Assembly (NCBI GenBank): GCA_030386875.1
Contig: CM059566.1
Coordinates: forward strand, 36,740,068 to 36,804,067
Direction of reading: 5' to 3'
DNA: 64,000 bases
From: Morinoia aosen
Taxonomy: Eukaryota > Arthropoda > Malacostraca > Amphipoda > Talitridae
The position numbers and the translations under genes are program-made. This document shows, piece after piece, positions 2,706 through 58,826 of this stretch. Numbering within the stretch: the stretch's first letter is position 1; the number at the start of each line of letters is the position of its first letter. The notes beneath the pieces were generated by a model. It was not told the origin of the DNA, made no database searches, and saw only the letters and a list, made by a program, of their open reading frames with translations.

Positions 2706-3381
2706 AGATGTGACTAAAAAAAAACCATGCCGTTTTTTTTAAAAAAACACGTTTTTTTACAAAAAAAAACCGTGGCAAAAAAAACGTCGATATTTTGTTT
2801 TTTTTCAAATATTTTGTCTGAAAATAACTCAGCATGAAAAAGAACCACATTACATTATTTGTTTTCATGTCAAATTACAAAATAAAACAGCATACTTCTT
2901 AATTAATGGTTTTCCATAGTTTTATGAAATTTTTCATTTTTTGCGGTTTCATGCTTTGATATTTCATTTATTTTACAATACATGTGAATGACCTTCAACT
3001 CCCAAAATGGTGTGTTATAATAACATATCTTTACTTATGGTCATTGATAGAGATGTGACTAAAAAACCATGCTGTTTTTAAAAAAAACATGTTATTTATA
3101 CAAAATTATGAATGAAAACCATGGATATTAATACATTTATGTGACCTTAAAAATCTAATGCTGTTTTTTTAAAACATTGTTTTTTAACAGAAAAATCTTG
3201 ACTAAAAAAACATGGCTATTATATTTTATGGGACCAAAAATTTTTTTTTTTAAAAAAACATTTCAAGAAAATCATGACTAAAAACACACGGATATAAATA
3301 TCAGGAAAGTTATTTTTCTTTAATCGAATTGTCTTTAGAAACTTATAAACAAAGAATGCTATTAATATTGAAATCATGTTT

Positions 3382-3631
3382 ATTAGAACTGTACTAGGTC
3401 TTAGAATAAAATATCTACAAAGAATCTATTCACTCCATAAAACCTTTCAGAGACCAGCTCCATCCTCAGTCATTCAGTAAAATTTGGTATAATGGACAAT
3501 GAATTTTCACTGTTCCTTTGAAAAACATTTGACTGAATGACTTACTGAGGATGGAGCTAGTCTCCGAAAGGTTTTATACAGTGAATAGATTCTTTGTGGA
3601 TATTTTATTCCAAGACCTGGTATGGTTCTAA
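3382..3631. repeat. Internal palindrome P1 of left composite
   Basis: Arms of about 100 bp (3382-3478 and 3531-3631) are inverted copies around a spacer of about 50 bp. The arms carry GGAGCTAGTCTCCGAAAGG and a TCTTAGAATAAAATATC-like end. In the right arm the order CTGAGGA (3545-3551), GGAG/CTCC (3553-3565), GAAA (3566-3569) resembles the motif in the palindrome at 16764-17130, so the two hairpins may be related. A convincing third stem is absent. Confidence 0.7.
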
Positions 3632-4060
3632 TGGATATTAATATATCTTATGTGACCAAAAAATCCATGCTGTTTTTTGAATGTTTTTGTTTCAAAAAAG
3701 TCATGACTAAAAAACACGGATATTAATATACAATATTTTACCATAAACAACCATCCTGTTTTTTTTTGATAAACATCTTTTTTACAGAAAAAACATGGTT
3801 AAAAAATGTGGATATTAATATATTCTATGTGCCAAAAAAACATGTGTTTTTTTTTATATTATGTTTTCTTTACCCAAAAAATCATGACTAAAAAACATGG
3901 ATATTAACGACTGTTTGTGAAAAAACGAGGTTTTTAAAATGTCATGTTTTTTTGGTCAGATAAAATTTAATAACACTCATGTTTTTGTAAAAAATCTTTT
4001 TTTCAAAAAGCATGGTTTTTTGGTCACATAAAATAAATTAATATCCATGTTTTTTTTACA

Positions 4061-4338
4061 GATTAGATTAGTCATTAGTTTTAGCCTCCCTACCCAGCAA
4101 CAAATGCAATCAAAAGAGAGGAAGGAAGATTATGAAACAAGATCAAAATTTAAGAAGACAGTAGTAGGTGCTGAAAAACAGGACAGCAGTGAACCAAAAA
4201 AAGGTGGTCCTCAACATAACAAAAACGTTTTGTTTCAACAAAAAGCAGGCCTACCTAACTCTCAGCTTGGGCCCTCACATTGTCCCCCTGGGAGCGCTAG
4301 TTCCCATAGATACAATAATTGTATCCCCCTGAGGGGGG
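4061..4338 (-). mobile_element. RepA copy 1, inserted in the left composite
   Basis: Internally deleted RepA: the segment of about 95 bp with the CACCATTTAGTATGGAGTTAAGG region is missing between GAGAGGAAGGA and AGATTATGAAAC. It is flanked by TG(T)8ACA (4048-4060) and TG(T)9ACA (4339-4352), a target-site duplication taken from the composite's own T-rich sequence. The same deletion and flanks occur in the copy at 57231-57501. The strand given is the inferred sense strand, with the (TCTAA)n-like tail at the 3' end. Confidence 0.85.
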
Positions 4339-4885
4339 TGTTTTTTTTTACAAAGAAGTCGTGACCAAAAAATTAATAATAATAACTTTTTAATAAAAAA
4401 AACACGTTTTAAGCAAACAATGATTTTTTTGGTAACATAAAATATGTTAATATCCATGATTTTTAGACACGACTTTTTATGAAAAATACATAAAATAAAA
4501 CAGCATGGTTTTTTGGTTGCATAAAATATATCCATATCCAGGTTTTCTTATACATCATTGTTTGTAAAAAAACATTTTTAAAAAACAGCATGGGGTTTAT
4601 AGGTCTCATAAATATATTCCTGGTTTTTCAGTCATGATTTTTTAGTAAAAAACATGTTTTTTTAAACTGCATGGGGCTTTTTAGGTCACATAAAATATAT
4701 TGTTTTTTAGTCATGATTCTTTGTAAAAAAAACAGCATGGTTATATTTGGTACGAGAAAATATATTAATATTCATTTTTATTAGTCAGAATTTTTTGTAA
4801 AAAAAAAATGTTTTAATAAACAGCATATTTTTTTGGTCACCTAAAATATATTTATATCTATGGTATTTAGTCATTTTTTGTAATG

Positions 4886-5200
4886 AAAACATAAAAAGAA
4901 ACCATACAGTAAAAGTGGTGGCAGATAACCCACAATTACCTAGAGGAGTCTAAGAGGTACAGCAGGAGCCACAGAACTTATATTGATGGAGTCAAAATTT
5001 AGAGCTTATTATCTCCACAAAGTCTGATTTTTTTGGTCACATAAAAATAAAATCAGACATAGTAGAGATAGTAAGCTCTGAATTTTGACTCCATCAATAT
5101 AAGTTCTGCGGCTCCTGCTGTTCCTCTTAGATGCCTCTAACTAGGTAATTGTGGGTTATCTGCCACCACTTTTACTGTATGGTTTCTTTTTGATGTTTTT
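4886..5200. repeat. Internal palindrome P2 of left composite
   Basis: Two arms of about 145 bp, running from AAAACATAAAAAGAAACC to its inverted copy GGTTTCTTTTTGATGTTTT, meet around TTTTTTTGGTCACATAAAAA. The arms contain GATAACCCACAATTACCTAG and CAGCAGGAGCC blocks with a few mismatches and one small indel. As single-stranded RNA or DNA this would fold into a long hairpin. It marks one point where the module orientation flips. Confidence 0.75.
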
Positions 5201-5368
5201 ATAACAAGAAAATGACTAAAAAACATGCATATTAATATATTTTAGGTGTCCGAAAAAACCCAGACATATACTTAACAAAATTTAGGTGTGCAAAAAAACA
5301 AAAAAAAACACAAAAACACATTTTTTTGCAAAAAACCGCAATCAAATAAAACCGTTTTTTGCATCACT

Positions 5369-7358
5369 GGTGAAGGTAGAAGGGAGTGCTTAACTAGATA
5401 TCGATACTACCTAACTGGATTTCTGTAGAGATAATAAGTTTCGAAACAATTCTTAGGAATGGCAGAAATTGAGGGTTGCAGATAGAACTCAGGAACCCTG
5501 CCATTCAGGTTCAGCGGACCTCGAGCAATTGTCCGACATTCCGACATACAAGGTTGTTACGCTAGATGAATAGAGCCTGATAAATTATCTCAACCCTAAC
5601 ATCATGCGCTTTTACGAGTTCAACTACTTCTCCAGGTTTTGTCAGCTCACGACAAAAAAAAAATCAAAGATAGCCGGAATACGGTTACCCCATTAGAAAA
5701 TCATTCTTTCTAACTGGAACTGTTGTTCTGAAGTACTCACAAAGCCGTCAAGAAGTCCATTACCATAACAGTCCAATTTGAGATATAGGACAAGGGAAAT
5801 CACAAGACAAAACAGAGACACGAAACAAAACCATATTTTAACCCGTCGCCACGTCCTGGACTCTTAGAAGGTTGGCAAAGCTAGCACACATGTTTCACAT
5901 CAGCAAACCTAGGGTTGCCATATATGGTCTTAAGCGTCTCGTTGAGCGCTATTCATTGGTGTAAGGTAAAATTAGGTGGGGGGAACAGGGAAGGAGAGGT
6001 AACAAGCTCAAATCTGTATGAATTCTTCTGCTCAGTCTGGAGTGTAGCTACCGGCACTGCACAACCTCTTAGAAGGCCTACAGTGTAGCTGAGGCATACC
6101 AGCACACACTCTGCCTCTAAGAAGGTCGCCATCATTTTCATTTTCTTATGTTTTTTGTTCCAAAAATGGGAGTCCAAATCCACAGATTTACTCCTACGCA
6201 AAAAATAATACCATCATTGTATTCGGGAGGAAAAGCTCTATGCATATCAAACTCTTTACAAACAATGAAACTGCTTGATAACAGCCTATACACAAAATGA
6301 ACTAAAATATAAAAACTGTGTTTTACATATAGTGCACATAACTCTGGAAGTATTGGTCCTGAAAAAAAAATTCACATACCACAAGATTCAGCAACGCAGA
6401 ATCTATGAAAATGCATCATAAAAAAACATAAAAGCGCAATAAATAAAAAATGGCCAGTGATTTTCTGATTTCTGTTTTTTGTATTTTGCCGAAATAAAAC
6501 TCGAATTTCGTACATTTTCATTGGGGTAGCAGTATTTTTTCCCCCATTGACAGAAAGAGCAACTCTCTCTCTTTACAATGAACCCCCAATGAAACTTCTA
6601 ACATGATTAATGAATGTACAGTAGGTTGCACAGTTGACCCATTTTCTTCAAACCTTTTGGTAGGTCGACCATGTGGAGACGGGTTAAGAAAACATATACC
6701 TAATGTACGTTGCCATGTAGTTGGAATGAGTGCAAGTTCTACTGTAGTTTGTTATGTAGTTAATAAGTCGAAATAATAAAGAACTTCAACGTAATTTAAT
6801 GGCACTTCAAACAAAGCGTCTAGTATAAGCCCAACTAAAAAGAAAATTACCAATTACCAATTACTTCTCAAATTGAACAACTGCCTATCAACCATCATAA
6901 GACCTCAAAAAAAAATCACATCGAAGCTGACTAATTTCACACTTTGAAGACGCAATCCCTACAAAGCAACGAATCAATTCTTGTAATCCTATAGCACCAC
7001 TTCAACTAAATCTTCGAAGGTTTAGTGCGATACCTAGCTTAAAGTGAACAAATGAGGCGGTAAACTGCACTGTTAAAATTCATAACTATAACGACAGTAA
7101 TAATTACAAGCATTCTGGACTGCAATTTTATTGATCGTTATTTACAGTTCATCGAACAAAATATATTGTCTACCAACGCTGTGCACCATTCATGTGGCTT
7201 TTCCCAAGTTTTGAATCGTAACATTTCGAAAATATTTGAAGTGAACGAGAAAAAAAAGAATAAGATCACCGGGAGCGGAATTTCAGCAGTAGGCTATACA
7301 CGCAGTTGCGAAATCCTTGCCACGACACGTCCATTGACCAAGCACTACAGAACATTCA
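5369..7358. other. Non-coding stretch with one small inverted repeat
   Basis: No gene recognised. The only structure seen is an 11-bp perfect inverted repeat, TTTCATTGGGG (6516-6526) and CCCCAATGAAA (6584-6594), around a pyrimidine-rich spacer; it could be the ends of an 80-bp hairpin remnant. Open frames at 5953-6201 and 7166-7363 have no support. Confidence 0.4.
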
Positions 7359-7733
7359 TTTGATGAGTTAGTTCCAGCCTCCATTACCAGAGCAATGTTA
7401 TTCAAAGAGAAAAAATCTGGAAGCACCATTTAGCATAAAGTTAAGGACAGGCGGAATCTATGCACAAAGTGTATTCCCGCACAGGATCCCGTGCGCAGAG
7501 ACACTGTAAGCTAAGAAAAAAAATTACGAAACAAGATGAAAGGCGAAGAAGAAAGTCAGAGGTGCTGAAAAACAAGACAGCAGTAAACCGGAGAAATAGG
7601 CCAAACAAATAAAAAATGAAACATTTTATTGCAACAAAAAGATGGTTTACGTGACTCTCAGCTCTGGACCTCACATTTTCCTCCTGGAAGTGATAACTCT
7701 TACAGATAAAATCGCTGTAACCCCCTGAGGGGG
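7359..7733 (-). mobile_element. RepA copy 2, near full length
   Basis: Carries the whole RepA series: AGCCTCC, CACCATTTAG, GGAATCTATGCACAAAGTG, GCTGAAAAACA, CTCAGCTCTGGACCTCACA and the CCCCCTGAGGGGG end. Diverged flanks GCACTACAGAACA (7342-7354) and GCACTAACACACA (7735-7747) may be an eroded target duplication. The translations seen inside it are repeat sequence, not genes. Confidence 0.8.
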
Positions 7734-8074
7734 TGCACTAACACACAAAAACTGGACTGCGCGCAGCAGCAGATGCTGTCTCCGAAGCCTTAGACGAGAA
7801 AACCATCTCAAGCTCCAAGAGCCGACCTCTCGACACAGGTCAATCAGAATCACATCGGACTTGCATAGACTTCACTCTTATACCTTGCTAGACGGATTCA
7901 CTCGTGAGAGGTCGTCTGATTCGATTAGAACAAGAATGAAGGATGGCCTAAGTAAAAGGGTGACATGACAGCGAAAGAGTAATACATGAATCTCAGGTTA
8001 CCAAACTATGAAGCGAAAATTGGGCAAATTTAGGCCACGTAATCAGAAGCACCAATAAACTGCTTAACGAATGT
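7734..8074. other. Spacer between RepA copies
   Basis: No gene or repeat recognised. Confidence 0.4.
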
Positions 8075-8090
8075 TAGACCAATGCAACAT

Positions 8091-8445
8091 TAGATTAGAT
8101 TATTAGTTGGTTTAAGCCTCCATATCCGCAACAAAGGCTATCCAAAGAGAGGAAGTGAGAAGGCACCATTTAGTATGGAGTTAAGGAAACGCGGACTCTA
8201 TGCAGAAAGGGCACAGAAACAGAAAGCTAAGAAAGAAGATCATGAAACAAGAAAAAGTTGAAGAAGAAAGTAGTAGGTGCTGAAAAACAGGACAGCAGTG
8301 AACCGAAAAAAGATGGTCCATAACAAAACAAAAACCTATTCTATTTCAACAAAAAGAAAGCCTTCCTATCCTTTAGCTCAGACCCTCACATAGTCCCCCT
8401 GGGAGCGCAAATTCCCAGACACAATAGTTGTATCCCCTTGAGGGG
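8091..8445 (-). mobile_element. RepA copy 3, full length with target duplication
   Basis: 355 bp from TAGATTAGATTATTAG to CCCCTTGAGGGG. The flanks TAGACCAATGCAACAT (8075-8090) and TAGACCAACGCAAGAT (8446-8461) match at 14 of 16 positions and are read as the target-site duplication. It is one of the clearest copies, so it helps define both boundaries of the family. Confidence 0.9.
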
Positions 8446-8461
8446 TAGACCAACGCAAGAT

Positions 8462-8840
8462 GCATCGTTGAATACACTGCACTTGAATTGGAACAGAAAA
8501 TCAGTAGTGGTAGTATTGTCATGCGTACGCTCAATAACGAACAATTAAAATAAAACTACAATTAAGGCAGTCAAGAAAACGTATGCTCTATATGCTTTAT
8601 CTTTATTTTTAAAAATAAACCGTTTCCGCGGAGAATAATTGATAAAACCCACACTATTCAGCGGACCTAAATCTCAATGCTCAGAGAAATATCCCATTCC
8701 TTCCACGTAACCGGAATTACAGTTCGATATTTTTTGTATTATTGTTGAATTGGTTATTTTACAACTCCCAAGCCACATCAAAAGCGAAAGCAAACGAGCG
8801 AAGAGACGAAATTCAGTATGGACCGTTGGAAACGGAGCGC
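8462..8840. other. Spacer between RepA copies
   Basis: AT-rich, with no gene or repeat recognised. Confidence 0.4.
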
Positions 8841-9171
8841 TTAGATTAGATAGTTGAGTTTATGCCTCACAACTAAAATCAGAATGTCTCAAAGAGGAGA
8901 ACGAGGAAAGCAACATTTATTATGGAGTTCAAAAACGGAAAACATCTGCACAAAGTTCACTCCTTTACGAAACTTTTTGTACATAGCAACAGTAAGTCAA
9001 GAAATAAGTTCATGAAACAAGACATGATAAAAGTTTAAGACAATCAGAGGCGTCGAAAAACAGGACAACAGTGAACCAAAAAAAATATGGCCCGTAACAA
9101 AACCCTACTTTATATCAACAAAAGGTAACCCTGCCTAACCTTCAGCTTGAGACTTCACATATTCCCCTGAG
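8841..9171 (-). mobile_element. RepA copy 4, diverged
   Basis: Begins TTAGATTAGATAGTTGAG and ends ATTCCCCTGA. Middle blocks (GAGGAACAAGGAAAG-like purine tract, GAAACAAGAC, GACAACAGTGAACC, CTGCCTAACCTTCAGCTTG) are recognisable but eroded. It is immediately followed by a RepB-like segment, so it may be older than its neighbours or part of a longer element. Confidence 0.7.
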
Positions 9172-9460
9172 TGCAGAAAACAGGGAAACTATGCAGAAGG
9201 AGTGTTCTCACACAGGGTATCTTACGCATAGAAAAAGTAAGAAGACAAGTAAAAAGGGAAAGAAAAAACAATGAAGAGCTAACAAAGGCGTGAAAACAGG
9301 AAGCAAATGTGGCATGGAAGACACGTCCGGAAGGTCAATCTACTCGTATAACGGAGGTAATCTAGCAGTATATTCTTTAGAAGTGCCAGTCCTCATAACA
9401 CTAGATTGACAAAACTAACCTGAACCGGTTGCCTACCCTATGCCCCTTCAGCAATAATGA
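9172..9460 (-). repeat. RepB copy 1 (RepA-related, with a different 3' part)
   Basis: The first part (ACTATGCAGAAGGAGTGTTC, ACGCATAGAAAAAG) is RepA-like. The rest is not RepA but aligns by eye with 14265-14530: both share a GGAAG/GAAAG-rich stretch, a CTAxCAGTATxTTCxTTxAG block, then AGATTGACAAAACTAACCTG and CCTACCCTATGCCCC equivalents. It seems to be a related family or a longer parent element. No coding is visible. Confidence 0.45.
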
Positions 9461-9588
9461 GATGAAAATAAGACACGATGTTTCAACCAAACGTGCCACA
9501 CTAGGAGATTGTAAGTACCAACAGCACCCACATCAATTCAACCATAGTGAGCAGCAGCAGCAGTAATGATATCAGCAGTTGGAGAGCA

Positions 9589-9852
9589 TCAGCGCTACCG
9601 CCATCAGACGCTGAGCTGCTGCCAACAGCAAAGCTCGGGAGCTGACGGCAGACGCACCGGACAGTTGGGCAGGAAGGGCGGAGCTGACGAGCCAATCAAG
9701 CGACGCAAGGCACCTAACAAACGAGCCACAATCTCAGCACGCCTACAGCCCCCTGATCGAGGGCCGAAGGAGCCGTAGAGCGCGTCTCCCGTGGGACGGC
9801 TCATGTCTTCATCAAGGTCGGGCAGCGCTGGGGCTTCGCTGGAACTACGAGC
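9589..9852 (-). CDS. Candidate coding exon in a GC-rich patch (unknown product)
   Basis: The sequence at 9540-9880 is clearly richer in GC than its surroundings. One minus-strand frame is open from just after a TGA at about 9855 to a stop near 9604. It begins SSSEAPALPDLDEDMSRPTG and continues to SFGPRSGG, with protein-like composition. An ATG at 9802-9804 has G at -3, a fair Kozak context. No clear acceptor or donor defines the ends, and the distal part (LLGALRRLIGSSAPPFLP) looks less natural. It could be a first exon, or a CpG-rich promoter read by chance; a CCAAT box is present at about 9692. I do not recognise the protein. Confidence 0.25.
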
Positions 9853-9861
9853 TCAAGTTTG

Positions 9862-10735
9862 GTCTAGTTCCCCTCGAACGAGTCACAGTATTTCTTTCGA
9901 ATGGCATCCGCTCAGGTAAATCAGGTAAAAAATTAATGACAATAAGTAATTAATGGCTGTAATATATTTTAAAATAGAAAAATGTTCACAATTTTTTTGA
10001 AATAACGAAAATAAACTGTACGCCATCATTTGAGATGAAATTTACAGCTAATTTGTGTCGTTTTAACGCTGCTGAAAGCAACACGTTAAATGTATGAACA
10101 ACTCGCGCACGTATTGTGCTACACACTATAATGACGCTGAGCGAATGATTAATCGTAGAATTGAGCCTAATTCTAAAATAAAGTATGTTAAAAACTAATG
10201 GTGCAAATTTTAATCGTTGGCATAAAAAAAACCTAGGAACTATTTTCTCACGAGTTAATATAAATACAGAGGTTCATCGTTTTCAGAGATAGCGCATCCT
10301 TAAGGTAGTGGGTCTCTAGGAAAATATTTTACTCTATTATTTTAAATCCGTGAATTGTGGCATAATTGGTTTACTTTAAATTAATGGTCACTTGCTATTA
10401 GTGAACATTTAAAGATGGCTCCCCAGTACCGGCAGAGATGGATCTCGTAGGAAAGATAGTTGACGCCGCAAGGCACATCGCGGACGATCGAGGAGTGTTA
10501 GATCGTGTACAGTAATCGCTCCAGCGAAACTACCAGACCTGTATAGACGTAGCGGGCGGATGTTTTGAACGCTTACTCTAATTTAGATTCTGTAATTGAA
10601 TTCGTGTCAGTCAATTCGCTAAATCCCTTGCGAATCTGGCCGCAACTTCAATAGTTAGATCCTACTCGATTTTGAGATTAAATCCCTCGAAAACGTGGAA
10701 TGTTTGCATTTTCACCGATTCTGGAAAGAGTCACT
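9862..10735. other. AT-rich non-coding stretch
   Basis: No gene or repeat recognised. Confidence 0.4.
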
Positions 10736-10747
10736 ATTTGGGTGTTT

Positions 10748-11124
10748 GATTAGATTAGATGTTAGTTTAAGCCTCCTAACCGCAACAGAGGCGTTCCAAA
10801 GAGAGGAAGGATGAAGGCCTCATTTAGAATGGCGTTAAGGGAACGCGAAATTTATGCACGCACAGCGTGTGTTCCCACACAAAAATCCCCGCGCATAGAA
10901 ACAATCAGTTAAGAAGGAAGACTATGAAACAAGATAAAAGTTGGAGAAGAAGCTTAGAAGTACTGAAAAACAGGATAGCAGTGAACCTAAAAAAGATGGT
11001 CCTAGACCAAAAAAATATTTTATCTCAAAAAAAAAATAGCTTCCCAATTCTCAGCTCGGAACCTTACATTTTTAACCTGGGAGTGCTAATTTCTATAGAT
11101 ACAATAGTGGCATCACACTGATGG
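10748..11124 (-). mobile_element. RepA copy 5, full length with target duplication
   Basis: 377 bp from GATTAGATTAGATGTTAG to TCACACTGATGG, an eroded form of the usual end. Flanks ATTTGGGTGTTT (10736-10747) and ATTTGGGTGCTT (11125-11136) agree at 11 of 12 positions and mark the insertion site. Confidence 0.88.
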
Positions 11125-11136
11125 ATTTGGGTGCTT

Positions 11137-16763: not shown

Positions 16764-17130
16764 CCTTATCAAAAACTTGAAAGCGAAGGAAATTCCGATG
16801 AAATTTATCATCCTTACTACGAAAACGTTTCGGAGTCCAGCTCCATCATCAGTTCAAACGAAAAAAGAAAGAATTACGTCTGAAATAAAAGATCAAAGTA
16901 AAGCAAAGTTCTGCACAGAATTCTTTGTTTTTGTCCGTGTCATACTTTGTATTTTTACTTTCATGATATATTTTTAGTACCTTCAATTCATTTTACTTTG
17001 ATCTTTTATTTCAGACGTAATTCTTTCTTTTTTCGTTTGAACTGATGATGGAGCTGGACTCCGAAACGTTTTCGTAGTAAAGATGATAAATTTTAACGGA
17101 ATTTTCATCGTTTTTAAGTTTTTGATAACG
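16764..17130. mobile_element. Foldback palindrome (terminal arms about 139 bp)
   Basis: Arms at 16764-16902 and 16993-17130 are inverted copies with a few mismatches; the spacer is about 90 bp and has no coding. Each arm contains GAACTGATGATGGAGCTGG followed by ACTCCGAAACGTTTTCGTAG. That order (CTGATGA, short GGAG/CTCC hairpin, GAAA, ACG/CGT hairpin, then TA) is that of a hammerhead ribozyme core. It is probably a miniature inverted-repeat or Penelope/retrozyme-related element. Confidence 0.75.
17042..17080 (+). ncRNA. Hammerhead-ribozyme-like core
   Basis: CTGATGA at 17042-17048; stem II GGAG (17050-17053) with CTCC (17059-17062) and a 5-nt loop; GAAA at 17063-17066; stem III ACG (17066-17068), TTTT, CGT (17073-17075); then A at 17076, which gives a GUA cleavage triplet. 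Known hammerheads in Penelope elements and retrozymes share this core. Stem I pairing between the bases before CTGATGA and those after 17076 is poor, so activity is doubtful. The other arm carries the same motif on the opposite strand (CTGATGA complement at 16846-16852). Confidence 0.35.
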
Positions 17131-18642: not shown

Positions 18643-19650
18643 TTAATTATCAGAATAATCAACCTTCTTATGAATAACCTCTTCCCACCTTTCTATTAGC
18701 TCTTTTTGAAACCTCTTTCATAAAATTTAATCGATTTCGACTGTAAAAAAATAGCTTCGTTTCAACTTCTTCTCCTAAAGTATTCTTTTACCCTGATAGA
18801 TGATTCTTTAAGCTTCCAAAAAGATGGTAATCCGCGTGAGCAAAATCAGGAGAATACAGGGCGGGAATGAAAACTTCCAAAACAAATTCTACACAGAGAT
18901 TCTTTAACCCTCTTGATTTGTGGGGTCAGCTATTTTCATGGCACAGAATCGCCTATTTTCTGTTAACTACAAGGGGCCTTTTTTCCTGCATAACAGTCTA
19001 CAAATAGTTTAACTGTTCTGAGTACACCTGAGAAGTTAATGTTTAATCATCGTCAAACAGCTCATATTCAATAGTTCCCTGCACGCCCACTCACACACGT
19101 AGAAAACAAATTTCGAATGTGGAATAGGCTTTGAACCAGGGCTGAGCAACTGTCTTTTACGTTTAACATTATTAAAAATCACTCATTTCTCAGCTCCAGT
19201 AACAATTGTGTCTAAAAATGGCGTTTGAAGTAGACAAGAACGCAGTGAGACACAGCAGTCCACACGTTGTTGGCGATTGTTTTTGGAAGATCGTGTGAAA
19301 CCCAATTTCCAGCCTTGTACACTTTACCAAGTCTTACATTTCACGATGTATGGTTCACGGTAAACTTCTTCCTCAGTTCCGAGTGATTTTGGAAGGGTCG
19401 TCTTCAATGAAAGCCAGTAATTCGTCACGACTACCCTTTGGACCTCCTTTTTTGGTTTGTCTGTGAAGCTGAACTTCTTTTTTGAAACGTGAAAACCATC
19501 TTCTATAGATTTTTTTTGTTACATCATTTCCGTAAGTTGAACAATCTTTCAGCAGAACTTCCTGTCCTGTGATTCTGAAACGCATTCAGCATGATGTAAT
19601 TCGAGTCAATATTAGTCGACTCTAATAAATGTGTCAATATTCGAAGCCTG
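18643..19650 (-). pseudogene. Dead mariner (Tc1/mariner, D34D) transposase
   Basis: Conceptual translation across frameshifts follows a mariner transposase from end to end: an N-terminal helix-turn-helix with YIMLNAF and then STYGNDVTKKIYRRWFSRFK, a TGAEK block, a CHENS-x-PH block, YSPDFAHADYHLFGSLKNHL, and the C-terminal RWEEVIHKKVDYSDN with a stop at 18643. The first catalytic Asp of TGDEKW is Ala (19192-19194) and its Trp codon is a stop (19183-19185). The second, in HDN, is Glu (18935-18937). The third is intact (18830-18832), exactly 34 residues after the second, the mariner spacing. With stops and frameshifts throughout it is not functional. Terminal repeats were not identified. Confidence 0.9.
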
Positions 19651-19718
19651 CATTCATTAATTTTACATGTCAGAAATCTTCAGCAAAGGATTTAACTGAG
19701 TGGAAGACCTATAAAGAA

Positions 19719-20034: not shown

Positions 20035-20040
20035 CAGAGC

Positions 20041-23283: not shown

Positions 23284-24166
23284 CAAATATGAGAATTCGG
23301 CACACAGCATCATAATAGCGCCTTCCTCAGCAGTCGCTGAGGGGTTTGCAAATAATTTTTCCTATCAGCGTAGGGTACTGTCATTCATGCGCACATGGAA
23401 TAAGATAAGCAGTGTCCTAAACACTAAAATTTTCATACTCATAAATTGTTGAAGCTTCATTAAAGATTGTTATGAGATAGCGCAGTCAAAATTCACGCTT
23501 GAGTTAGCTGGAAAATGCAACCTAATTTTCCACAAATTTCCTAGTTCGAATACATAGGTGAAACAAAATCCAGTAAGGTAACACATGATATACGAGAATA
23601 ATTTTTGAAGGTAATTCAGAGCTGAAATGCTACACTACGCCGCATACAAAAACTGGTTTTCGAATATCTATTTTGAACCCACAAGTGACACTAAATATTG
23701 GATCAGAATCATTCCGATGAGCTCCAGAACTTATAAGATCCAGCACATTTCGCACTGCGTGCCAGGCGCACATCGTCGCTACTGAAAAGGTTCAATTCAA
23801 ACACCTGCAAATACTTCATTCTTCCTACCATGGGAGGTGGACACTGACTTCAATTCCACAATATTGTTTTACTATTTTGTCAAGAGAACGTCCTTCTATG
23901 TAGGACAAATTTTAAAAAAGACTGAATTTTACACACAAGGTCAAAATCTTTCATCCAAAATGCAGCAGAATTTGAACGTGAAAAAAATGCACTCACACGA
24001 AAACCGTAACTGAATTTACGTTTTCTATCGGGATTGACCCCCACACAATTATTCTACCAGACTGCTTAACACCAGGAAAGTAATCGATGAGGTATACTTC
24101 ATCAATTTTTACGAGAAATACGAAGACGCAGTAAGGAATAAACTGTCTCTGAGTGGCCGCGTCGCA
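23284..24166. other. Non-coding stretch
   Basis: No gene or repeat recognised before the minisatellite. Confidence 0.4.
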
Positions 24167-24895
24167 CAGGCACACGACGCAGGCGCGCAGGCACACGACG
24201 CAGGCGCGCAGGCCCACGACGCAGGCGCGCAGGCCCACGACGCAGGCGCGCAGGCCCACGACGCAGGCGCGCAGACCCACGACGCTGGCGCGCAGGCACA
24301 CGACGCTGGCGCGCAGGCACACGACGCTGGCGCGCAGGCACACGACGCTGGCGCGCAGGCACACGACGCTGGCGCGCAGGCACACGACGCTGGCGCGCAG
24401 GCACACGACGCTGGCGCGCAGGCACACGACGCTGGCGCGCAGGCACACGACGCTGGCGCGTAGGCACACGACGCTGGCGCGCAGGCACACGACGCTGGCG
24501 CGCGGGCACACGACGCTGGCGCGCAGGCACACGACGCTGGCGCGCAGGCACACGACGCAGGCACACGACGCAAGCATACGACGCAGGCACACGACGCAGG
24601 CAAACGACGCAGGCACACGACGCAGGCACACGACGCAGGCACGCGACGCAGGTACACGACGCAGGCACACGACGCTGGCGCGCAGGCACACGACGCAGGC
24701 GCGCAGGCACACGACGCTGGCGCGCAGGCACACGACGCTGGCGCGCAGGCACACGACGCAGGCGCGCAGGCACACGACGCAGGCGCGCAGGCACACGACG
24801 CAGGCTCGCAGGCACACGACGCAGGCTTGCAGGCACACGACGCAGGCGCGCAGGCACACGACGCAGGCGCGCAGGCACACGACGCTGGCGCGCAG
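24167..24895. repeat. CpG-rich 21-bp minisatellite with a 13-bp sub-array
   Basis: The main unit is CAGGCACACGACGCTGGCGCG (21 bp, sometimes with A for T at position 15), repeated about 18 times on the left and about 11 times on the right. In between, at about 24546-24670, the unit shortens to 13 bp (CAGGCACACGACG and variants), about nine times, lacking the CTGGCGCG part. Variants cluster: CAGGCCCACGACG in neighbouring units near 24208-24290 and CTG in long runs. Because 21 is a multiple of 3 and the unit has no stops, several frames on both strands stay open, one for 337 codons on the minus strand (Cys-Val-Val-Cys-Leu-Arg-Ala repeats). The array is best read as non-coding. Confidence 0.95.
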
Positions 24896-41907: not shown

Positions 41908-41919
41908 CCCTTCCATTAA

Positions 41920-42364
41920 ATGTACGAGGAGCTCACGAGATTAGAACCCGGGACTTAAATTCACCGCACCAGAACGCTATCGATCGCGCTACCGACCACC
42001 CTAAAAGGTGGTCGAAGCTCAACGAAAGCAATCTTGGCACAGTGAAAGCAGGCACGAACTTGGCCCGACAGATATATTTTCTCATTTTTCTTAAGTATCG
42101 AGAGTTCAAAATCAAGTCAGTTACGAGTAGTTACGGAAAGCTACTGCTTCCACAAGGTTTTTCAAACAAATAAATGTACGAGGAGCTCACGAGATTAGAA
42201 CCCGGGACTTAAATTCACCGCACCAGAACGCTATCGATCGCGCTACCGACCACCCTAAAAGGTGGTCGAAGCTCAACGAAAGCAATCTTGGCACAGTGAA
42301 AGCAGGCACGAACTTGGCCCGACAGATATATTTTCTCATTTTTCTTCATTTTCATTTCATTTTT
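41920..42364 (-). mobile_element. Dimeric tRNA-derived repeat unit with target duplication
   Basis: Two direct copies of 176 bp (41917-42092 and 42171-42346), identical by eye, are separated by a 78-bp linker. On the minus strand each holds a tRNA-like part: GGTGGTCGGTAGCGCGATCG (A-box-like) followed by AGTCCCGGGTTCTAATCTCG, which includes a B box GGTTCTAATCT. The whole two-copy unit is bounded by the 12-bp direct repeat CCCTTCCATTAA (41908-41919 and 42365-42376), so it inserted as one piece. The right side ends in a T-rich run. Confidence 0.75.
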
Positions 42365-47874: not shown

Positions 47875-47882
47875 GTATAGAC

Positions 47883-48042: not shown

Positions 48043-48236
48043 GTTTAGACTGAAGTTGAGACGGGCAAATCCATTTGCGTTCCATCACATATAACATTGA
48101 ATCACTTCTCAGTAGCATCTAATGCATTAGATGTATTTCAGCAAGAAATTCGTTGGCTGCACTGGTAATTAAAATTCTGTTCATGCCTCCCCAATCCTAG
48201 CTAACATTTTATGTTTTACGTGTCGTGAGTAATATA

Positions 48237-48589
48237 GATTAGATTAGTCGTTAGTTTTAGCCTCCCTACCCAGCAACAATTGCGATCCAAAGAGAGGAAG
48301 GAGGAAGGCACCATTTAGTATGGAGTTAAGGAAACGCGGAATCTACGCAGAAAGGCATAGAAACAGTTAGTTGTGAAAGAAGATTATGAAACAAGACCAA
48401 AGTTGAAGAAGACAGTAGTAGGTGCTGAAAAACAGGACAGCAGTGAACCGAAAAAAGGTGGTCCTTAACATACAAAAACATTTTATTTCAACAAAAAGAA
48501 GGCCTACCTAACTCTCAGCTCAGGCCCTCACATTGTCCCCCTGGGAGCGCTAGTTCCCATAGATACAATAATTGTATCCCCCTGAGGGG
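48237..48589 (-). mobile_element. RepA copy 14, full length with perfect 13-bp target duplication
   Basis: 353 bp from GATTAGATTAGTCGTTAG to CCCCCTGAGGGG. The perfect duplication CGTGAGTAATATA lies at 48224-48236 and 48590-48602. It is the youngest-looking copy. It shares CCTCCCTACCCAGCAACAA with the copies in the two composite elements, so it belongs to the same subfamily. Confidence 0.95.
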
Positions 48590-48602
48590 CGTGAGTAATA
48601 TA

Positions 48603-50588
48603 TGTGTGTCTAAAGTAATAATATATGGGTATATAAGATCCAAGCATCGCAGCAATGGTCCCAATGAACGTTTTTACTCTTGACACTTACAACTGATTGA
48701 TGGCTGATACAAAAGAGACCTTAGAAGTTAATTTAACAAGAAAGCATTATGGTTATTTACACGACTCTTATCAGGTCTTACGATTTAAACTCACTATCTT
48801 TAACGAAATCAAAAATATGAAATCAAATTAATAAAAGATATTCCAGGTTGTATCATACGAAAAATTTTAGAATAACTTCTTCATTACTAGAAAAATTCCA
48901 TGATCACACGATAAAAATGAAATTAAAAACACACGATTGACTTATAATAGAATAAAAAAGCAGAACTAACAAAACCGTTGGGCTTCCTCGATAATAAAGA
49001 GCAACAAAAGCGTCCAGATAAAATACCTAGCATGAGCACACACCAGGCGCTTCAGCTTAGAAAAGCAAACTTTTATGACAAAATTGCTGAGATATATTCA
49101 AGCGTGTTTTGAGACAGTTGAACAATGACAGGCATACGAAATGATGCTCATTAGTTTGTTACGTGAAGTTCCTGGTGTGATGAACTACAACGCGGCAATG
49201 CACAAGGCAATCCCTACAGGTCCAATGATTCACGCACGCACACAAGAGGCACGAGATGGCATTGCCGGAAGTGGATATGATGAAATGTGCCACGTCCGTG
49301 CCACGAATAAGAACCAAATTGCTGATCGTAAATTGCACTCGCAACGCCCTTTTTGGGGAAGAGTTAAACTTGCTCGTGATCGACCGTCACGCAGAACAAT
49401 GCGCTGCAAGACAATAAAATAAAACGACTACAAAACAGAGTAACTTTCAGGTAAACAAAATGCGTTCGAAAATCTTTCCTCACAAAAGTATAACGAATGG
49501 CAGAGAGATATCAGCATAATTGCCACAGCTGTTCTTTCGAAGTCATGTGCATCAAAATTGGCACAGGATGCTGAGCACGCAAGCTCGTGCCGTGATGGTA
49601 GAACCATAGAGTTTGACGTTCTACACAAAGGTACAAAAGACGAACGGAATAAACCTAACAACGACTGGAGTTTCATTTCGACACGAAGCGAGTACTTCTT
49701 ATGCGCTTTATTCATACCATACACTGGACCCTAACGAGGGTCTGAGCAAGACTGACGGGAAATAAATTGTTCACTATAAATGATGGATTCAACATGAGGT
49801 GACTCGACAGCAATCAGCGCTGAAAATTTCCTCAAAAACTAGCCAATATAGAATCCTAGTAACCCACAGACAACGTTGTTTTCCAGCATTAGAATTAAAT
49901 CTAAAAAGTTTGGGCGTTTAGAACACCAAGAGAAGTAAACTTGCTACGCAGCACTTGACACCAAAGTGAGACGCAACATTAATATTCTTGTGGGTGACTT
50001 GAACATGCCAGCGGTGGCGCAGCTGTGTGGACTGGAAGTACAATGGTGGCGGCAGGAGGAAACGCTGAAGATGATGGTTGTCACTCGCGCATGAACATGT
50101 CGCACACTGGCATTGACATACAAAGAGGGACAGACACACAAAAGTGTGCACGAGGTCACGACGACATAATCCTTGCCGTGGGATCAGCCCACCAAACACA
50201 CGCCACCTTCAGGTCACCGAGTTCTAACTTCGCAAGTGCGACAACAAATGTCCGACTCGTGTCCGTGCTGCTGGACAAACTTCTCGACCTGAAATTATGT
50301 TCAACTTGGCGCGCATCTGTTTTCACTTTTTACCTCTCGAAATGTTTTTTAATTTACCACGTGAAAATTTCATACAAATTTCCTCAATATGACTATACTA
50401 TGAGTAATGAAGATTGAACTTCAGAATTACTGCACCTCTCTGCCTGCACTAGAACATTGCTCGCGGATTTTGACACATAGCCTTTTTTAGAGAGGAAGTT
50501 TGGACCGACAATTATACCTCGGAACTCAGACAAATCGGAATTCTTTTTTTCCAGGAACATAAATAGAATGCATCGAAAAATGACGGTG
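48603..50588. other. Non-coding stretch
   Basis: No gene supported. Frames on both strands at 49141-49422 and 49918-50417 overlap each other and show no motif. Confidence 0.4.
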
Positions 50589-50600
50589 CGAATAAAGCGA

Positions 50601-50973
50601 TTAGATTTGATCACGAGTATTAGCCTCTCTAACCAAAACCAAGGTGTTCAAAAAAGAAGAAGGATGAAGACACCATTTAGAATATAGAGTTAGGGAACGC
50701 AGAGTCTATGTACAAGGTATGCTCTCACGCAAACGCCCTACGCACAAAAACAGTGCAAGGAATGGAATTTATGATATAAGATAAAAGTTGAAGAGCGAGT
50801 CAGAGGTGCTAAAAAAAATGTCAGAGGTGAACAAAAAAGGATGGCACACAGTAAAAATCAAAACCTATTCTATTCCAACAAAAAGAGCCTGCCTAACTTT
50901 CAGCTCAGGATCTCACATTTTCTCCTCGGTAGCGCTAATTCTCATTACTACAAGAGTTGTCTCCTCCTGAGGA
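50601..50973 (-). mobile_element. RepA copy 15, full length with perfect target duplication
   Basis: 373 bp from TTAGATTTGATCACGAG to GTCTCCTCCTGAGGA. The perfect 12-bp duplication CGAATAAAGCGA lies at 50589-50600 and 50974-50985. The body is fairly diverged from the other copies despite the intact duplication. Confidence 0.92.
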
Positions 50974-50985
50974 CGAATAAAGCGA

Positions 50986-53976
50986 GTAAAATTGAAAGAC
51001 TGAACGGCGTTACATTAAATATAAATCAAGATAGCCCCAAAGTACGAGACAAATATTACAAGGGCAAGTACACCGTAAATAAAGCAAACAATTTTTTTTT
51101 AAACAAAATAGAATGATGAAGAGAAATAAAAATATAAATTTCCCTATTATATCAAATTCACTCCCAAAAACTACATAAAAACAAGTGCTCGAATGTAAAT
51201 AGAGAATATGCTGTGAGTACCACAAGACATGATACTTTCAAAGGAAATTATATTTCATATTTCCAATTGGTCGATTCGAAGGAAATGGGCAGAATTGCTT
51301 CTGATTTGCAAAAAATCAAACCTTGATGAAACGAGCAGAATTACATCGCATTCGTTTCAAATCATACCATGATTAGGAGATACAACAAAGGGCTGTGGTT
51401 GATTTAGTAACAATTCAACAGTAAAAACTATTCCACAAGTTTGGCCACTTCTAGAGAGCATGCTGTCGTCGTGGAAAAACAGAAAACCGATAACTTAAGA
51501 AGGAATTGGAAGTCATTCAGACAGTCACAACGTTATACTAGGTCAAAATTCGAAACAAGAGTTAGTTCTGCAAAACGCGCGTTCGTCGGACATCACTAAC
51601 GCATGCACAATAACCACGAGTAAAACACGCTGTTGGCTGAGACGCACAGGCTACATGAGCAATGAGAAGCACAAACTGTTAAACTTATTTGTGATAAGAG
51701 CATAAATTTGTATGGACAAATTAGCACAAACGCTGACATTTGGCCCCTCTCACGCCACACACATCCGCAGTGTGAAGGTTCAAAACAGTCTGGCGGAAGC
51801 GTCACAAAAGCTGAAGATTTCGAACAAAATATCACAAGAAAAGGTAAACTATATAGTCGCTTATCTGATTACAAAGCCTAATGACTGCCAAAAACATCCC
51901 CGCGGAATAATAAACGAAGAGGAAAATGATACGTGAAACAACAGTTTAGTAATAAAAACTCCTTCGAGCCTAGAAAGACGTAGAAAACGGGCACGCTTTT
52001 CGGGAGATAAAAAGAGTTCCCATGTAATCTGAGGAGGACTACGTAATCTTAAATCTTCAGAACGCACAAAGCAAATACAGACTGCACGTTACTACGCTAA
52101 TTTAAGGAAACGCAAGGAGACGAAAAGCATCAACGAGCACTATGAAAGCAAAATAAAAGGCATTCAGGAATGCAGATTGACATGGAGAGTCGGTTAAAAT
52201 TCAACTTGAGAACACTAAGCATGAAAACCTTAAAATTAGTTTTTGGCCGTAAGCAAGATGTTGTCTAGGCAGCACAAAGAAAGCTTTCCTCGAGACTCGG
52301 GAAGACTTGCATGGGCTACAAAAGAGCAAGGTAAAGCGTTGGCCGATGAGAGGTGTCCCTGTGCACCTCGGCAGCACGACTAAAGCATTAGGCGTGAACA
52401 AAAGCCAGCATAATGATCATGTCCAGCCCGAATAACGAACACTTGCGAGCGCTCTCACAATGAACAACTCGCAACGATATCAACGTTTCTTTTCCATTGC
52501 AGAAAAAGCGTACATGAACGCTCACGAATGAAAGATTTATCCACGTAAAATAATTCTCAGCTATCTTTTAGCTTAATAGGAAGCATAGGTTGTGAATTTT
52601 ATAACCCTAGACCTGTGAACTAAATACTTGAACATGACAGATCCAATTTACTCAAGTGAATGGTACTTTTTGCCATATGTACAGGTAAACGTTCGAGGAG
52701 TTCCAGTGGACTGTAATGCATAGTGTTGAACTTGGTTGCTCCTCAGAAGTTCAACTCACACAACAGACGTGTAAGATAGGTGCAACATCAACAACTTAGT
52801 TTTCTTGTCACCATGATTCATAATTTTAGAATATCCGTTAACTAGACGAGTTACGGCACCGAAGAACCAGGAAGAACTTGCGGATGCCAGATGCGAATAG
52901 GTAACTAGCCGGAGAAGTTGACCCACCAAAAGAAAGGAAGGACACAGGGAGTTGGGGCGCCTTTTTAGTTGTCAAACATCAACATCCCAATGGTAACACG
53001 CTCACGACTCCCGTCGTTGTGTTGTGTCTAAAAACGCACCACCTGCAACGACTGTCTGAAAAGTGATCTATGAGCTACAAATTGCACAAATTTACGTTTT
53101 TTTACCGCAAAGAATAGAGCCAAATCGATGAATTTTCCAGATAAGTTGAACACTGATGTATTTTCCTATTCTTCTAAAATGATTATTAAAGAGATCTCGA
53201 GCAAGTCTAAATACAAGCGTATCTTAACATTATTGCACGCTTTATTGGAAACTGGAAGTATCTCTCCAATCCAAACAAACAGGTTGACGAAAATCTAAAT
53301 ACAAGCAGGAACATGAAAAACGTGATACATTGACAAGGAAGTATGATTGAAATGTTCATGAAGACCCCCCAAAAATTCACTACACACATACGTAACATCC
53401 ACAGAATTATAACTTCAATATCATTGCACTTCCGCTTCAGTGTCATCTCGCTTCGATCAAGATGCATGAAATTTTGATTTATCACTTTTTGATGCTAAAT
53501 ACTGTGGGGCTGTACTTTGCTGATAGTCTAACGAAAAAATAAATCAACAGCATGAATGCACTTATTTAATATAAGCCCACCGTGTGAAGTCCAGAGTTGA
53601 AGCATTAACTGCTAATGCAAATACAACGTAATCTGGACTAAGCATCACTGCTGCAGAGCTATGCAAATAAGGGACGGCAACAATGAGAGGCAGTCAGAAA
53701 GCGGATGATTAGAGGGTCTGATTTCAGTAGCTGGCTTTGAGCACAAAATATCATATATTTAAACGATTTTTAATTCTGAGGAATTAAATCTAGCGAGAAT
53801 GCAAATCCGTGACAGGCCAATTCCTTCTTTCCGAGTAAAGAGCTCAAGAGTAGAGCAACTAATGCATTTCATTGCCGGGACAAGTACTCCAAGGAAGTGA
53901 TACAAGTATTATATATCGAAGAGAAAACACGAATTTCTAATTTCAAGTGGTTTTAAGAGACGACTGTTTTCCAAAA
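50986..53976. other. Non-coding stretch
   Basis: About 3 kb with no recognised gene. Short frames at 51596-51936 and 52201-52401 have no motif. Confidence 0.4.
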
Positions 53977-53990
53977 GAAATGCACTATCA

Positions 53991-54314
53991 TTATTATTAT
54001 TATTATTATTTTATAAGAAAGTTTTAGCCTCCCTTAACCACGACAAAGATGTTCCAAGAGAGGAAAGAGGAAGGCACCATTTAGTATGGAGTTGAAGGAA
54101 CGCGGAATCTATGCACAAGGTGCATAGAAACTGTAAGCTAGGAAAGAAGTTCATGAAACAAGAAAAAAGTTGAAGAAGAAAGTAGTAGGTGCTGAAAAAC
54201 AGGACAGCAGTGAACGGAAAAAAGATGGTCCGTAACAAAACAAAAACCTATTTTATTACAACAAAAAGGAAGCCTACCTAACCTTTAGCTCGGGCACTCA
54301 CATAGTCCCCCTGG
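53991..54314 (-). mobile_element. RepA copy 16, 5'-truncated, (TAA)n tail, target duplication
   Basis: AAATGCACTATCA flanks the copy on both sides (53978-53990 and 54316-54328). The left end is a (TTA)n run (53991-54012), i.e. a (TAA)n tail on the minus strand. The right end stops at CATAGTCCCCCTGGG, before the distal hairpins. Tail, duplication and truncation together show that the sense strand is minus and that the copy arose by reverse transcription. Confidence 0.93.
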
Positions 54315-54328
54315 GAAATGCACTATCA

Positions 54329-56146
54329 ATAGAGATGAAGTGTTTTGAAGAAATAAAGAATATGCCAGAAAGGACACAATCCCTTCAGAAAGAAAATACG
54401 AACTTCAAAGAGAAAACCAGTATTTCCATGACGGACAAATACAAGAGAACGAAAACTTGTCGAGACTTCAACCGATACATGTGACCAAGTCTACTAATAC
54501 ATAGCGCAGAACACAAATTCGCACAACATGAGGTAGCATTTCATGCCACACGATTAAATCGAGTACCAAGTGGTCTCAGAAAACGTTACTGCAGCTAGCT
54601 CGTCAACTCTAACATGAGATGAACATAGAGAAATAATCACACTAGCGACACGGGCTAGTTAAAATAAAAGGCTGCGGCAAAGGCCACCAGATGGTCGGCC
54701 CAGTGATGACTCATGGTGTCCAGGCGCGGGACACGCGGCAGCCCCGACACCTTAATAGGAAACACCGCTACCGAGCTAATGTATAAATAAATAAATAGAC
54801 AAGATGAATAAATTAATTAAAATAATACGTAACTAACAACTCTCCAACAAAATCTCAAAGAAATGAATGGGACAGGAGGTGCTGCGAATTGAACTTGATC
54901 TCAGCAGAATGTAAAGTCGGATGACCACCAAGTGACACAAGCGCATACAATACAACAGCAAGTGACGTCAGGAACGAGGTGAGGAGCCCATTCTCATTGC
55001 TACTGAACTTCAACCTCGTCAGACGTATATCGCATGCGAGCACCTAACTCATTTACTGACATTTTTCACGTACCAACACCAATAAATTCCTCCTTACCAT
55101 GACGATTTTTTACGTTATGTTGACACCGCTATCGGATGAGGCATTACCAATGGAATCGTATATATGCCCTAAAAATAGACACCATCCCTGATAACGCTTC
55201 ATAAATTTCGCATCTCACATTTATCCCTTCATATCTCTCTGGAATGAAGTTGCACAAAGAACAAAGGTGGAGAAGCATGAATAGCGCTGTAGTAAACTCT
55301 GGCACACTCATGACCTAGCACGTCAGACATATAGTTCCTTTTATCCTTTTATCGTATGGAAAACTCAAAAAGGCAATTACACCAAACGCAGAGACGATGT
55401 TTCACACACGAATTCAATACAAAATCTTCCTCAATTTAATCGATCACTTCTAGTAGGAAATAAAGGTTTGTGGGGCTGCCAAAGCTGCTGCTGAGCTCGC
55501 TAAGTTCCAGCAGACGAGCGCCGAATTTTGAGCCAGTCAATGAGCTCTAACGTCTTCTGTGGGTTTTGACTCCACAACCTATGAACACGAAACTATTTTC
55601 GCTCGTAAATCTTTCACGACAGACGTCACAGGCCCCACAAATAACTTGGGAGAAAATCGTTGCCTTTCAGACAGAAATGTCAGGAGAGGAGGAATTTGCG
55701 AGATCAAGGATACTGCGGGACACAAATTGACACAAAATGAGTGAAATACATCACTTTTAACATAATTTAAAAAACTACGTTGATGCACCTTACCGTTTCA
55801 TCGATGTTAAAACGATATGAGCGAACCACTCAATATTAAGTGGTAAATACGACCGCTTTGTTGCTTTTTAAAGCTGCACATCGCAAGAAGCATGAAAAGA
55901 AAGAGCTTGATGTGGAGTCATTAAAGAAGCTCCTGTTCAAACATGGAAAAAGACCGACGACTTCTTCGAGCAAGTAACGAACTTCTATACTTTCATTGCC
56001 GGAGAAAAATTTGCCAGAGACATTGAGGCCAAAAGTTGTGCACAAATTATACAGCGACTCTCACCCCCGGGAAGTGCAAGATGGAATACCAGGAGATGAG
56101 AGCGGGTATCGTGACCTTATCTCAATGAGACGCGCATGTCATGAAT
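54329..56146. other. Non-coding stretch
   Basis: No gene recognised. Confidence 0.4.
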
Positions 56147-58826
56147 AGTGATGCAAAAAAACGGTTTTGTTTGATTGCGTTTTTTTTTTGCAAAAAAAAA
56201 CGTGTTTTTTATGTGTGTTTTTTTTTGCACACCTAAATTTTGTCAGGTATATGTCTGGGTTTTTTTGGGACACCTAAAATATATTAATATCCATGTTTTT
56301 TTAGTCATTTTATTGTTATAAAAACATCAAAAAGAAACCATACAGTAAAAGTAATGGCAGATAACCCACAATTACCTAGAGGCGTCTAAGAGGAACAGCA
56401 GGAGCCACAGAACTTATATCGATGGAGTCAAAATTTAGAGCTTACTATCTCTACTATGTCTGATTTTATTTTTATGTGACCAAAAAAAATCAGACATAGC
56501 AGAGATAATAAGCTCTGAATTTTGACTCCATCAATATAAGTTCTGTGGCTCCTGCTGTACCTCTTAGACTCCCCTAGGTAATTGTGGGTTATCTGCCACC
56601 ACTTTTACTGTATGGTTTCTTTTTTATGTTTTCATTACAAAAAAAGACTAAAAACAATAGATATTAATATATTTTAGGTGACCAAAAAAATATGCTGTTT
56701 TATTTACAAAAAATTCTGACAAATAAAAATGAATATTAATATATTTTCTGGTACCAAATATAACCATGCTGTTTTTTTTACAAAGAATCATGACTAAAAA
56801 ACAATATATTTTATGTGACCTAAAAAGCCCCATGCAGTTTTTTTAAAAAAAAAACATTTTTTACTAAAAAACCATGACTGAAAAAACATGAATATATTTA
56901 TGAGACCAAAAAAATGTTTTTGTACTAAAAAATCATGACTAAAAAACATGAATATATTTATGAGACCTAAAAAAACCAATGCTGTTTTTTAAAAAATGTA
57001 TTTTTTACAAACAATGATGTATAAGAAAACCTGGATATGAATATATTTTATGCAACCAAAAAACCATGCTGTTTTATTTTATGTATTTTTCATAAAAAAT
57101 ATGTCTTAAATTCATGGATATTAACATATTTTATGTTACCAAAAAAACCATTGTTTCTTTTTAAACATGTTTTTTTATTAAAAAGTTATTATGATTCATT
57201 TTTTGGTCATGACTTCTTTGTAAAAAAAAACCCTCAGGGGGATACAACTATTGTATCTATGGGAACTGGCGCTCCCATGGGGACAATGTGAGGGCCCAAG
57301 CTGAGAGTTAGGTAGGCCTCCTTTTTGTTGAAATAAAATGTTTTTGTTGTCGAGGACCACCTTTTTTCGGTTCACTGCTGTCCTGTTTTTCAGCACCTAA
57401 TACTGTCTTCTTCAACTTGGATCGTTTCATAATCTTCCTTCCTCTCTTTGGATCGCATTTTTTGCTGGGTAGGGAGGCTAAAACTAATGACTAATCAAAT
57501 CTGTAAAAAAAACATGGATATTAATTTGTTTTATGTGACCAGAAAACCATGCTTGTTGAAAAAAATTTTTTTTACAAAAAACAGGAGTGTTATTAAATTT
57601 TATCTGACCAAAAAACATGACATTTTAAAAACTGTTTTTTCACAAAAAGTCATTAATATCCATGTTTTTACATCATGATTTTTTGGTAACAAAAACATTA
57701 TCTAAAAAAAAACACCATGGTTTTTTTTTGCATATAAAATATATTAATATTTACATTTTTAATCATGATTTTTTTGTAAAAAGATGTTTAAAAAAAAACA
57801 GCATGGTTGTTTATGGTAAAATAAAGTATATTAATACCCGTGTTTTTCAGTCATGACTTTTTTGAACAAAAACATTCAAAAAATAGCATGGATTTTTTGG
57901 TCTCATAAGATATATTAATATCCATTAGAACCATACCAGGTCTTAGAATAAAATATCCACAAAGAATCTATTCACTCTATAAAACCTTTCGGAGACTAGC
58001 TCCATCCTCAGTAAGTCATTCAGTCAAATGTTTTTCAAAGGAACAGTGAAAATTCATTGTCCATTTCACCAAATTTTACTGAATGACTGAGGATGGAGCT
58101 GGTCTCCAAAAGGTTTTATGGAGTGAATAAATTCTTTATAGATATTTTATTCTAAGACCTAGTACAGTTCTAATAAACATGATTTCAATATTAACAGCAT
58201 TCTTTGTTTATAAGTTTCTAAAGACAATTCGATTAAAGAAAAATAACTTTCGTTCGTCATGATTTTTTTAAAATGTTTTTGAAAAAAACAATTTTTTTGG
58301 TCCCATAAAATATAATAGCCATGTTTTTTTAGTCAATATTTTTCTGTTAAAAAACAATGTTTCAAAAAAAGCAGCATTGGATTTTTAAGGTCACAAATAT
58401 ATTATTATCCATGTTTTTTTCATAATTTTTGTATAAATAACATGATTTTTTCTTTAAAAAACAGCATGGTTTTTTAGTCACATCTCTATCAATGACCATA
58501 AGTAAAGATATGTTACTTTATCACACCATTTTGGGAGTTGAAGGTCATTCACATGTATTGTAAAATTAATGAAATATCAAAGCATGAAACCGCAGTAAAT
58601 GAAAAATTTCATAAAACCATAGAAAACCATCAATTGATAAGTATGCTATTTTATTTTGTAATTTGACATGAAAACAAATAATGTAATGTGGTTCTTTTTC
58701 TTGCTGAGTTATTTTCAGACAAAATATAAAAAAAATATCCACGTTTTTTTGGCCACGTTTTTTTTTTGTAAAAAAACGTGTTTTTTTTTTAAAAAACGGC
58801 AAGGTTTTTTTTTCAGTCGCATCTCT
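56147..58826 (-). mobile_element. Right copy of inverted AT-rich composite element
   Basis: Reverse complement of 2706-5368 over its whole length: AGTGATGCAAAAAAACGG at the left, then palindrome P2 (about 56318-56634), the RepA insertion (57231-57501), palindrome P1 (about 57925-58174), and GCATCTCT at the right. Differences are scattered substitutions and changes in T/A run length (2680 against 2663 bp). There is no coding. The flanks outside both copies do not match, so the duplication seems to stop at the element ends. Confidence 0.78.
57231..57501 (+). mobile_element. RepA copy 17, inserted in the right composite
   Basis: Starts CCCTCAGGGGGATACAAC and ends ACTAATGACTAATCAAATC. It has the same internal deletion as the copy at 4061-4338, and the poly-A form of the TGTTTTTTTTACA flanks. 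It is plus-sense only because the whole composite is inverted, so it is not an independent insertion. Confidence 0.88.

Follow-up and report, generated by a model that had tools for sequence, protein, structure and literature searches.

An inverted pair of repeats in the Morinoia aosen genome as probable independent insertions of a foldback transposon family with hAT-like ends

In the 64,000-nucleotide stretch of Morinoia aosen DNA analysed here (the window), two repetitive elements lie 51 kb apart in opposite orientation, raising the question of whether one gave rise to the other, and whether such a pair has inverted, or might yet invert, the DNA between them. The two copies, termed A and B, are as follows.

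2703-5369, + strand: copy A of the element (2667 bp), of the non-autonomous foldback type, with ends TTGAGATGTG...GCATCACTG and without a matching target duplication
56146-58827, - strand: element copy B, 2682 bp, with ends TAGAGATGCG...GCATCACTA as read on the - strand

A preliminary description of this locus had suggested comparing the window with itself, aligning the two copies and searching the assembly for others. The inverted pair is confirmed: self-BLAST recovered it as the longest repeat in the window, in two blocks of 90.6-90.9% identity including gaps (E = 0), and a global alignment of A and B runs from end to end, the two agreeing at 2417 of the 2592 aligned bases (93.25%; K2P 0.071), with 34 gap events and a longest exact tract of 90 bp. 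Hence the description of the two as reverse complements over their full length was right as to the end-to-end inverted alignment, but its wording hid a divergence of about 7%. The flanks of A do not align with those of B, as had also been claimed, and once A and B had been masked, the only remaining matches to the element in the window were copies of a repeat termed RepA and a single 32-bp motif within a hairpin at 16.8-17.1 kb. Copy A is A+T-rich (28% G+C) and has a CpG observed/expected ratio of 0.42, against 0.97 for the window.

Many further copies are present in the genome (1.99 Gb in 29 contigs). A first look with the element query produced 6888 candidates, and from these came at least 381 matching pieces, scoring being confined to the best 40. 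The repeat counts are lower bounds, and the list of copies must be far from complete because copy B of the window is not among the matches listed. Copy A was one of the 40 best, and the other 39 were fetched with their flanks, being picked by similarity to A rather than as a random sample. In four of them (L015, L016, L028 and L037) the right end was not recognised and may lie outside the fetched stretch; these are kept in the set of 39 but not counted among the copies with both ends, which number 37 (35 fetched copies together with A and B). When the 78 flanks were compared, 46 of 3003 pairs were similar somewhere, none of them up to the element edge, and none of these pairs involved the window; as flank similarity never reaches the edge, the copies are separate insertions. 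Assuming one copy per candidate, the rough mean spacing of the 6888 would be about 290 kb, hence a neighbour within 51 kb is unremarkable, and the A/B pair is an ordinary sample of an abundant family.

We consider it about 84% probable that A and B are independent insertions of a high-copy, non-coding family of DNA transposons with foldback anatomy and hAT-like ends, allowing for a hAT step that is unproven and for a target composition that matches no named hAT group. Terminal inverted repeats of hAT elements begin (T/C)A(G/A)NG, and the target duplications of Mutator elements are about 9 bp long. Short terminal inverted repeats of the hAT form were found in copy B, where TAGAGATGCG and TAGTGATGCA agree by inspection at 8 of 10 positions, whilst the termini of copy A deviate at the outermost bases (TTGAG, CAGTG). 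The family ends and the duplications bordering B are listed below.

Family ends, TAGAGATGYGACT...TTTTTTGCATCACTA: the bounds that an autonomous partner would carry
56138-56145, unstranded: 8-bp target duplication of B, inner side, GTCATGAA
58828-58835, unstranded: 8-bp target duplication of B, outer side, GTCATTAA

The duplications GTCATGAA and GTCATTAA agree at 7 of 8 positions, a match equalled by a fraction of 0.0007 of random 8-mer pairs from the window. Among the 39 fetched copies, the 8-bp flanking repeats match at 8/8 in 30, 7/8 in four and 6/8 in one, with the right end unrecognised in four; agreement at a ninth base, in 10 and 9 of the 35 copies, is at the chance level rather than extending the duplication to the length typical of Mutator. 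Hence 34 of the 39 attain the 7-of-8 match taken as the criterion in a survey of hAT elements (PMC8721813). From the ends and the duplication length we infer a hAT-type family, the whole unit of which would be recognised by its ends and moved by a hAT-type transposase made elsewhere in the genome.

It is also conceivable, at odds that we regard as low but appreciable, that the foldback family owes its mobility to a different transposase superfamily, for example Mutator. With exceptions, foldback elements have mostly been placed in Mutator (PMC4079207), whilst hAT elements are described with short inverted repeats, long arms being unusual (PMC3517528, PMC3942097). The foldback anatomy with its unit arrays would agree with such an origin, as would the lack of a visible transposase and of a clear hAT pattern at the target sites: 34 of these have T at position 2 in 11 cases, A at position 7 in 13 and no TA at positions 4-5, which does not fit the nnnTAnnn of Buster and does not clearly fit the T at 2 and A at 7 of Hermes. 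Against it stand the length of the duplications, which are of 8 rather than 9 bp (8/8 in 30 of 39, with the ninth base at chance), and the TAGNG form of the ends, as in hAT elements. The same 34 matched target sites (L009-L047) have C at position 3 in 18 and G at position 6 in 20, in a symmetric nnCnnGnn arrangement.

The interior of the element, set out here for copy A, is built from tandem units of about 87 bp and two palindromes.

3052-3901, + strand: forward array of ~87-bp units, copy A (profile search), interrupted by P1
3926-4858, - strand: reversed array of ~87-bp units, copy A (profile search), interrupted by RepA
3382-3632, unstranded: palindrome P1, copy A, with counterpart 57924-58174 in copy B; DNA fold z = -18.4
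4828-5258, unstranded: palindrome P2, copy A, with counterpart 56260-56690 in copy B; DNA fold of 4893-5190, z = -30.4
3048-3071, + strand: second, internal copy of the left terminus (TAGAGATGTGACTAAAAAACCATG), copy A

The profile search found the forward and reversed arrays of copy B to be mirrored relative to those of A, as well as weaker unit matches in both orientations near the element ends; a short + strand match at 4340-4373 in copy A is an exception to the reversed-array pattern, and across the window no unit was detected outside A and B at E 0.001. Each of 41 aligned copies has 6-10 forward and 3-11 reversed unit matches. The element thus has the long inverted arms of tandem sub-repeats that characterise foldback elements, these arms being imperfect mirrors of about 65-80% identity in their main blocks. 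Both palindromes fold far better than shuffled sequence, and they are older than the split between A and B, since the arms of one palindrome (82-89% identical) differ more than do its counterparts in A and B (95.6-96.8%). One element ORF scanned against Pfam had no match.

The hairpin at 16766-17128 is 363 bp long, with 137-bp arms that are 94.9% identical, each containing a 32-bp motif (87.5%) in common with the arms of P1. By eye it resembles a hammerhead ribozyme core with one extra base; a strict scan of the window for this core, in which the extra base was disallowed, gave no hits, and a search of two stretches against Rfam recovered no hammerhead up to E = 10, hence the idea was dropped. 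This hairpin, P1 and P2 matched microRNA-precursor models of Rfam at relaxed thresholds, below the gathering scores of these models, and are read as generic long hairpins; at gathering thresholds there were no Rfam matches in the whole window. Scans of viral contigs for RepA and two hairpin motifs found no loci.

Pfam searches of 10 ORFs gave nothing but one weak match to HTH_48, at 19376-19585 on the - strand, a fragment resembling the helix-turn-helix of a Mos1-type transposase (E 0.0005, below the curated cut-off). Elsewhere in the window, 24163-24895 is occupied by a large minisatellite that is open in several frames, its 21-bp units being CGCGCAGGCACACGACGCTGG and variants, and a 176-bp direct repeat is found at 41917-42092 and 42171-42346, its two copies being 100% identical with starts 254 bp apart.

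The interspersed repeat RepA is about 360-400 bp long; 16 copies of it were aligned, two of them nested within A and B.

4061-4338, + strand: nested RepA of copy A, with a ~72-bp internal deletion, inside the reversed unit array
57236-57501, - strand: nested RepA of copy B, with place and deletion as in copy A
4050-4060 and 4342-4352, unstranded: direct repeat TTTTTTTTACA to the left and right of RepA, copy A

The observation that A and B hold the same internally deleted RepA with its direct repeat was borne out, RepA sitting at the same place and between copies of TTTTTTTTACA in both. The deleted segment of ~72 bp is present in the other 14 aligned RepA copies. Direct repeats of 9 to 13 bp abut, or nearly abut, RepA in eight of the 16; a ninth match, at c29631, lies 20 and 11 bases off, and seven gave no direct repeat. 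All 41 aligned element copies have RepA in the same alignment columns, a count biased by the presence of RepA in the query, as copies lacking it would rank low; this indicates that a unit already bearing RepA was amplified. The RepA span of 202-280 bp in these copies implies that the deletion is likewise common to all, a strict motif for its junction being found in 33 of the 41. On this basis a single RepA would have inserted into a progenitor element and then lost ~72 bp, after which the progenitor would have been amplified with RepA carried as a passenger.

Of 10 of the longest copies, examined individually, L017, L019 and L023 contain a further RepA in reversed orientation, its position being roughly common to the three, and L036 and L038 a 229-bp insert. 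Such recurrent inserts in sublineages suggest that the element was co-amplified with its inserts probably more than once. Another copy, L013, has about 1 kb of inserted sequence, at about 2165-3161 in the orientation of the element, that by eye resembles part of the reverse transcriptase of a non-LTR retrotransposon.

The pair had been proposed as a possible driver of inversion. Recombination between inverted copies swaps their target duplications, as shown for Galileo (PMC2775673). That the 51 kb between A and B was once inverted in this way might be supposed from their opposite orientation and 93% identity, from the inversions documented for Galileo (PMC2775673), and from the flanks of A, which match each other at only 2 of 8 positions. 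However, swapped duplications would be expected at both copies, whereas the two sides of B match each other at 7/8 and no comparison between A and B exceeds 5/8; as a result no past A-B exchange is visible, and we regard such an inversion as highly improbable. A future inversion at the pair is possible.

The flanks of A are a different case. Both ends of this copy are in place, with one changed outermost base each, and no other copy among the 37 that have both ends lacks a flank match of at least 6/8. The best shifted target duplication for copy A reaches 6/8, the same as random sequence, and was rejected. Point mutation at a few percent is very unlikely to have produced the mismatch, which could stem from exchange with a third copy, or from a deletion ending at the element. 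We can put forward only tentatively, and as a rather unlikely combination, the fuller picture of a hAT-mobilised foldback family that repeatedly picks up and amplifies repeats, with copy A as the scar of a third-copy exchange.

The claim that one element is a copy of the other has in its favour the RepA, deletion and structure common to A and B, but RepA is there in all 41 aligned copies. These range from 88.7% to 97.3% in identity (median 93.6%), such that the A-B value of 93.52% in this alignment is typical. When the best 40 of the 6888 candidates and B are ranked by similarity, B comes 27th of 40 relative to A, and A 21st of 40 relative to B. A tree of the 41 copies is star-like, with short deep branches and weak support for many inner ones; at a support of 0.939, A groups with L009, L014-L016, L018 and L021, and at 0.952 B groups with L045. 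Relative to the consensus, from which A is 3.3% and B 3.8% distant, there are 88 non-consensus states in A and 100 in B, of which only three are common to both; in one segment alone, B has 14 in common with L010 and 14 with L045. A short tree of RepA alone does pair the RepA sequences of A and B (0.887), this tree containing no RepA from other element copies. We therefore reject A and B as a daughter pair, given their ranks, their different parts of the tree and their three common states, and the odds that either was copied directly from the other are very small. As independent insertions, A and B would come from different sublineages, and their opposite orientations at a distance of 51 kb would be due to chance. 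In the same tree L015 and L016, which lie on different contigs, are sisters with a support of 1.000. Each was called at 2262 bp without a recognised right end, and they are perhaps a derived subfamily with another right half.

Segmental duplication or an assembly artefact, for which nothing speaks beyond the A-B similarity itself, is the least probable account of all, given the absence of flank homology, the divergence of about 7%, at which misassembly of one copy is unlikely, and the many copies with their own target duplications. The original suggestion that a unit already holding RepA had transposed, rather than been segmentally duplicated, is upheld by the non-homologous flanks and by the 8-bp duplications of B and 34 of the 39 fetched copies.

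Among known systems, Tetris, a foldback element of Drosophila virilis, resembles the present family in being apparently non-autonomous, with no conserved ORF, and in having inverted arms with tandem units; its target duplications are of 8-10 bp (PMC4079207). However, its units are of ~220 bp, in comparison to ~87 bp here, its authors suggest a place in Mutator, and the account cited mentions no passenger repeat such as RepA (PMC4079207). Galileo, a foldback-like element of the P-superfamily that generated inversions in Drosophila buzzatii, shares with A and B the long inverted repeats and inverted pairs that can recombine, but has 7-bp rather than 8-bp target duplications, and its inversions were shown by exchanged duplications and chimeric copies, which A and B do not have (PMC2775673). 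Mar and the BuT2-derived elements, which are non-autonomous hAT elements, are similar in their 8-bp duplications, short end repeats and non-coding sequence, yet are shorter, at about 0.5-0.9 kb; the cited accounts do not mention unit arrays, and the Mar target consensus, nnnTAnnn, is not seen at the sites here (PMC3517528, PMC3942097). No hAT foldback element was apparent from titles and the openings of abstracts, whilst one may still be in print; if the assignment is true, such a case would be a modest addition to the mostly Mutator-like foldback elements.

The supposed local event is thus removed from the list, the pair being background from an abundant transposon family. The family is a usable case of a DNA transposon spreading passenger repeats. 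Since target duplications are clean in most of the fetched copies, unmatched flanks can serve to recognise a recombined copy.
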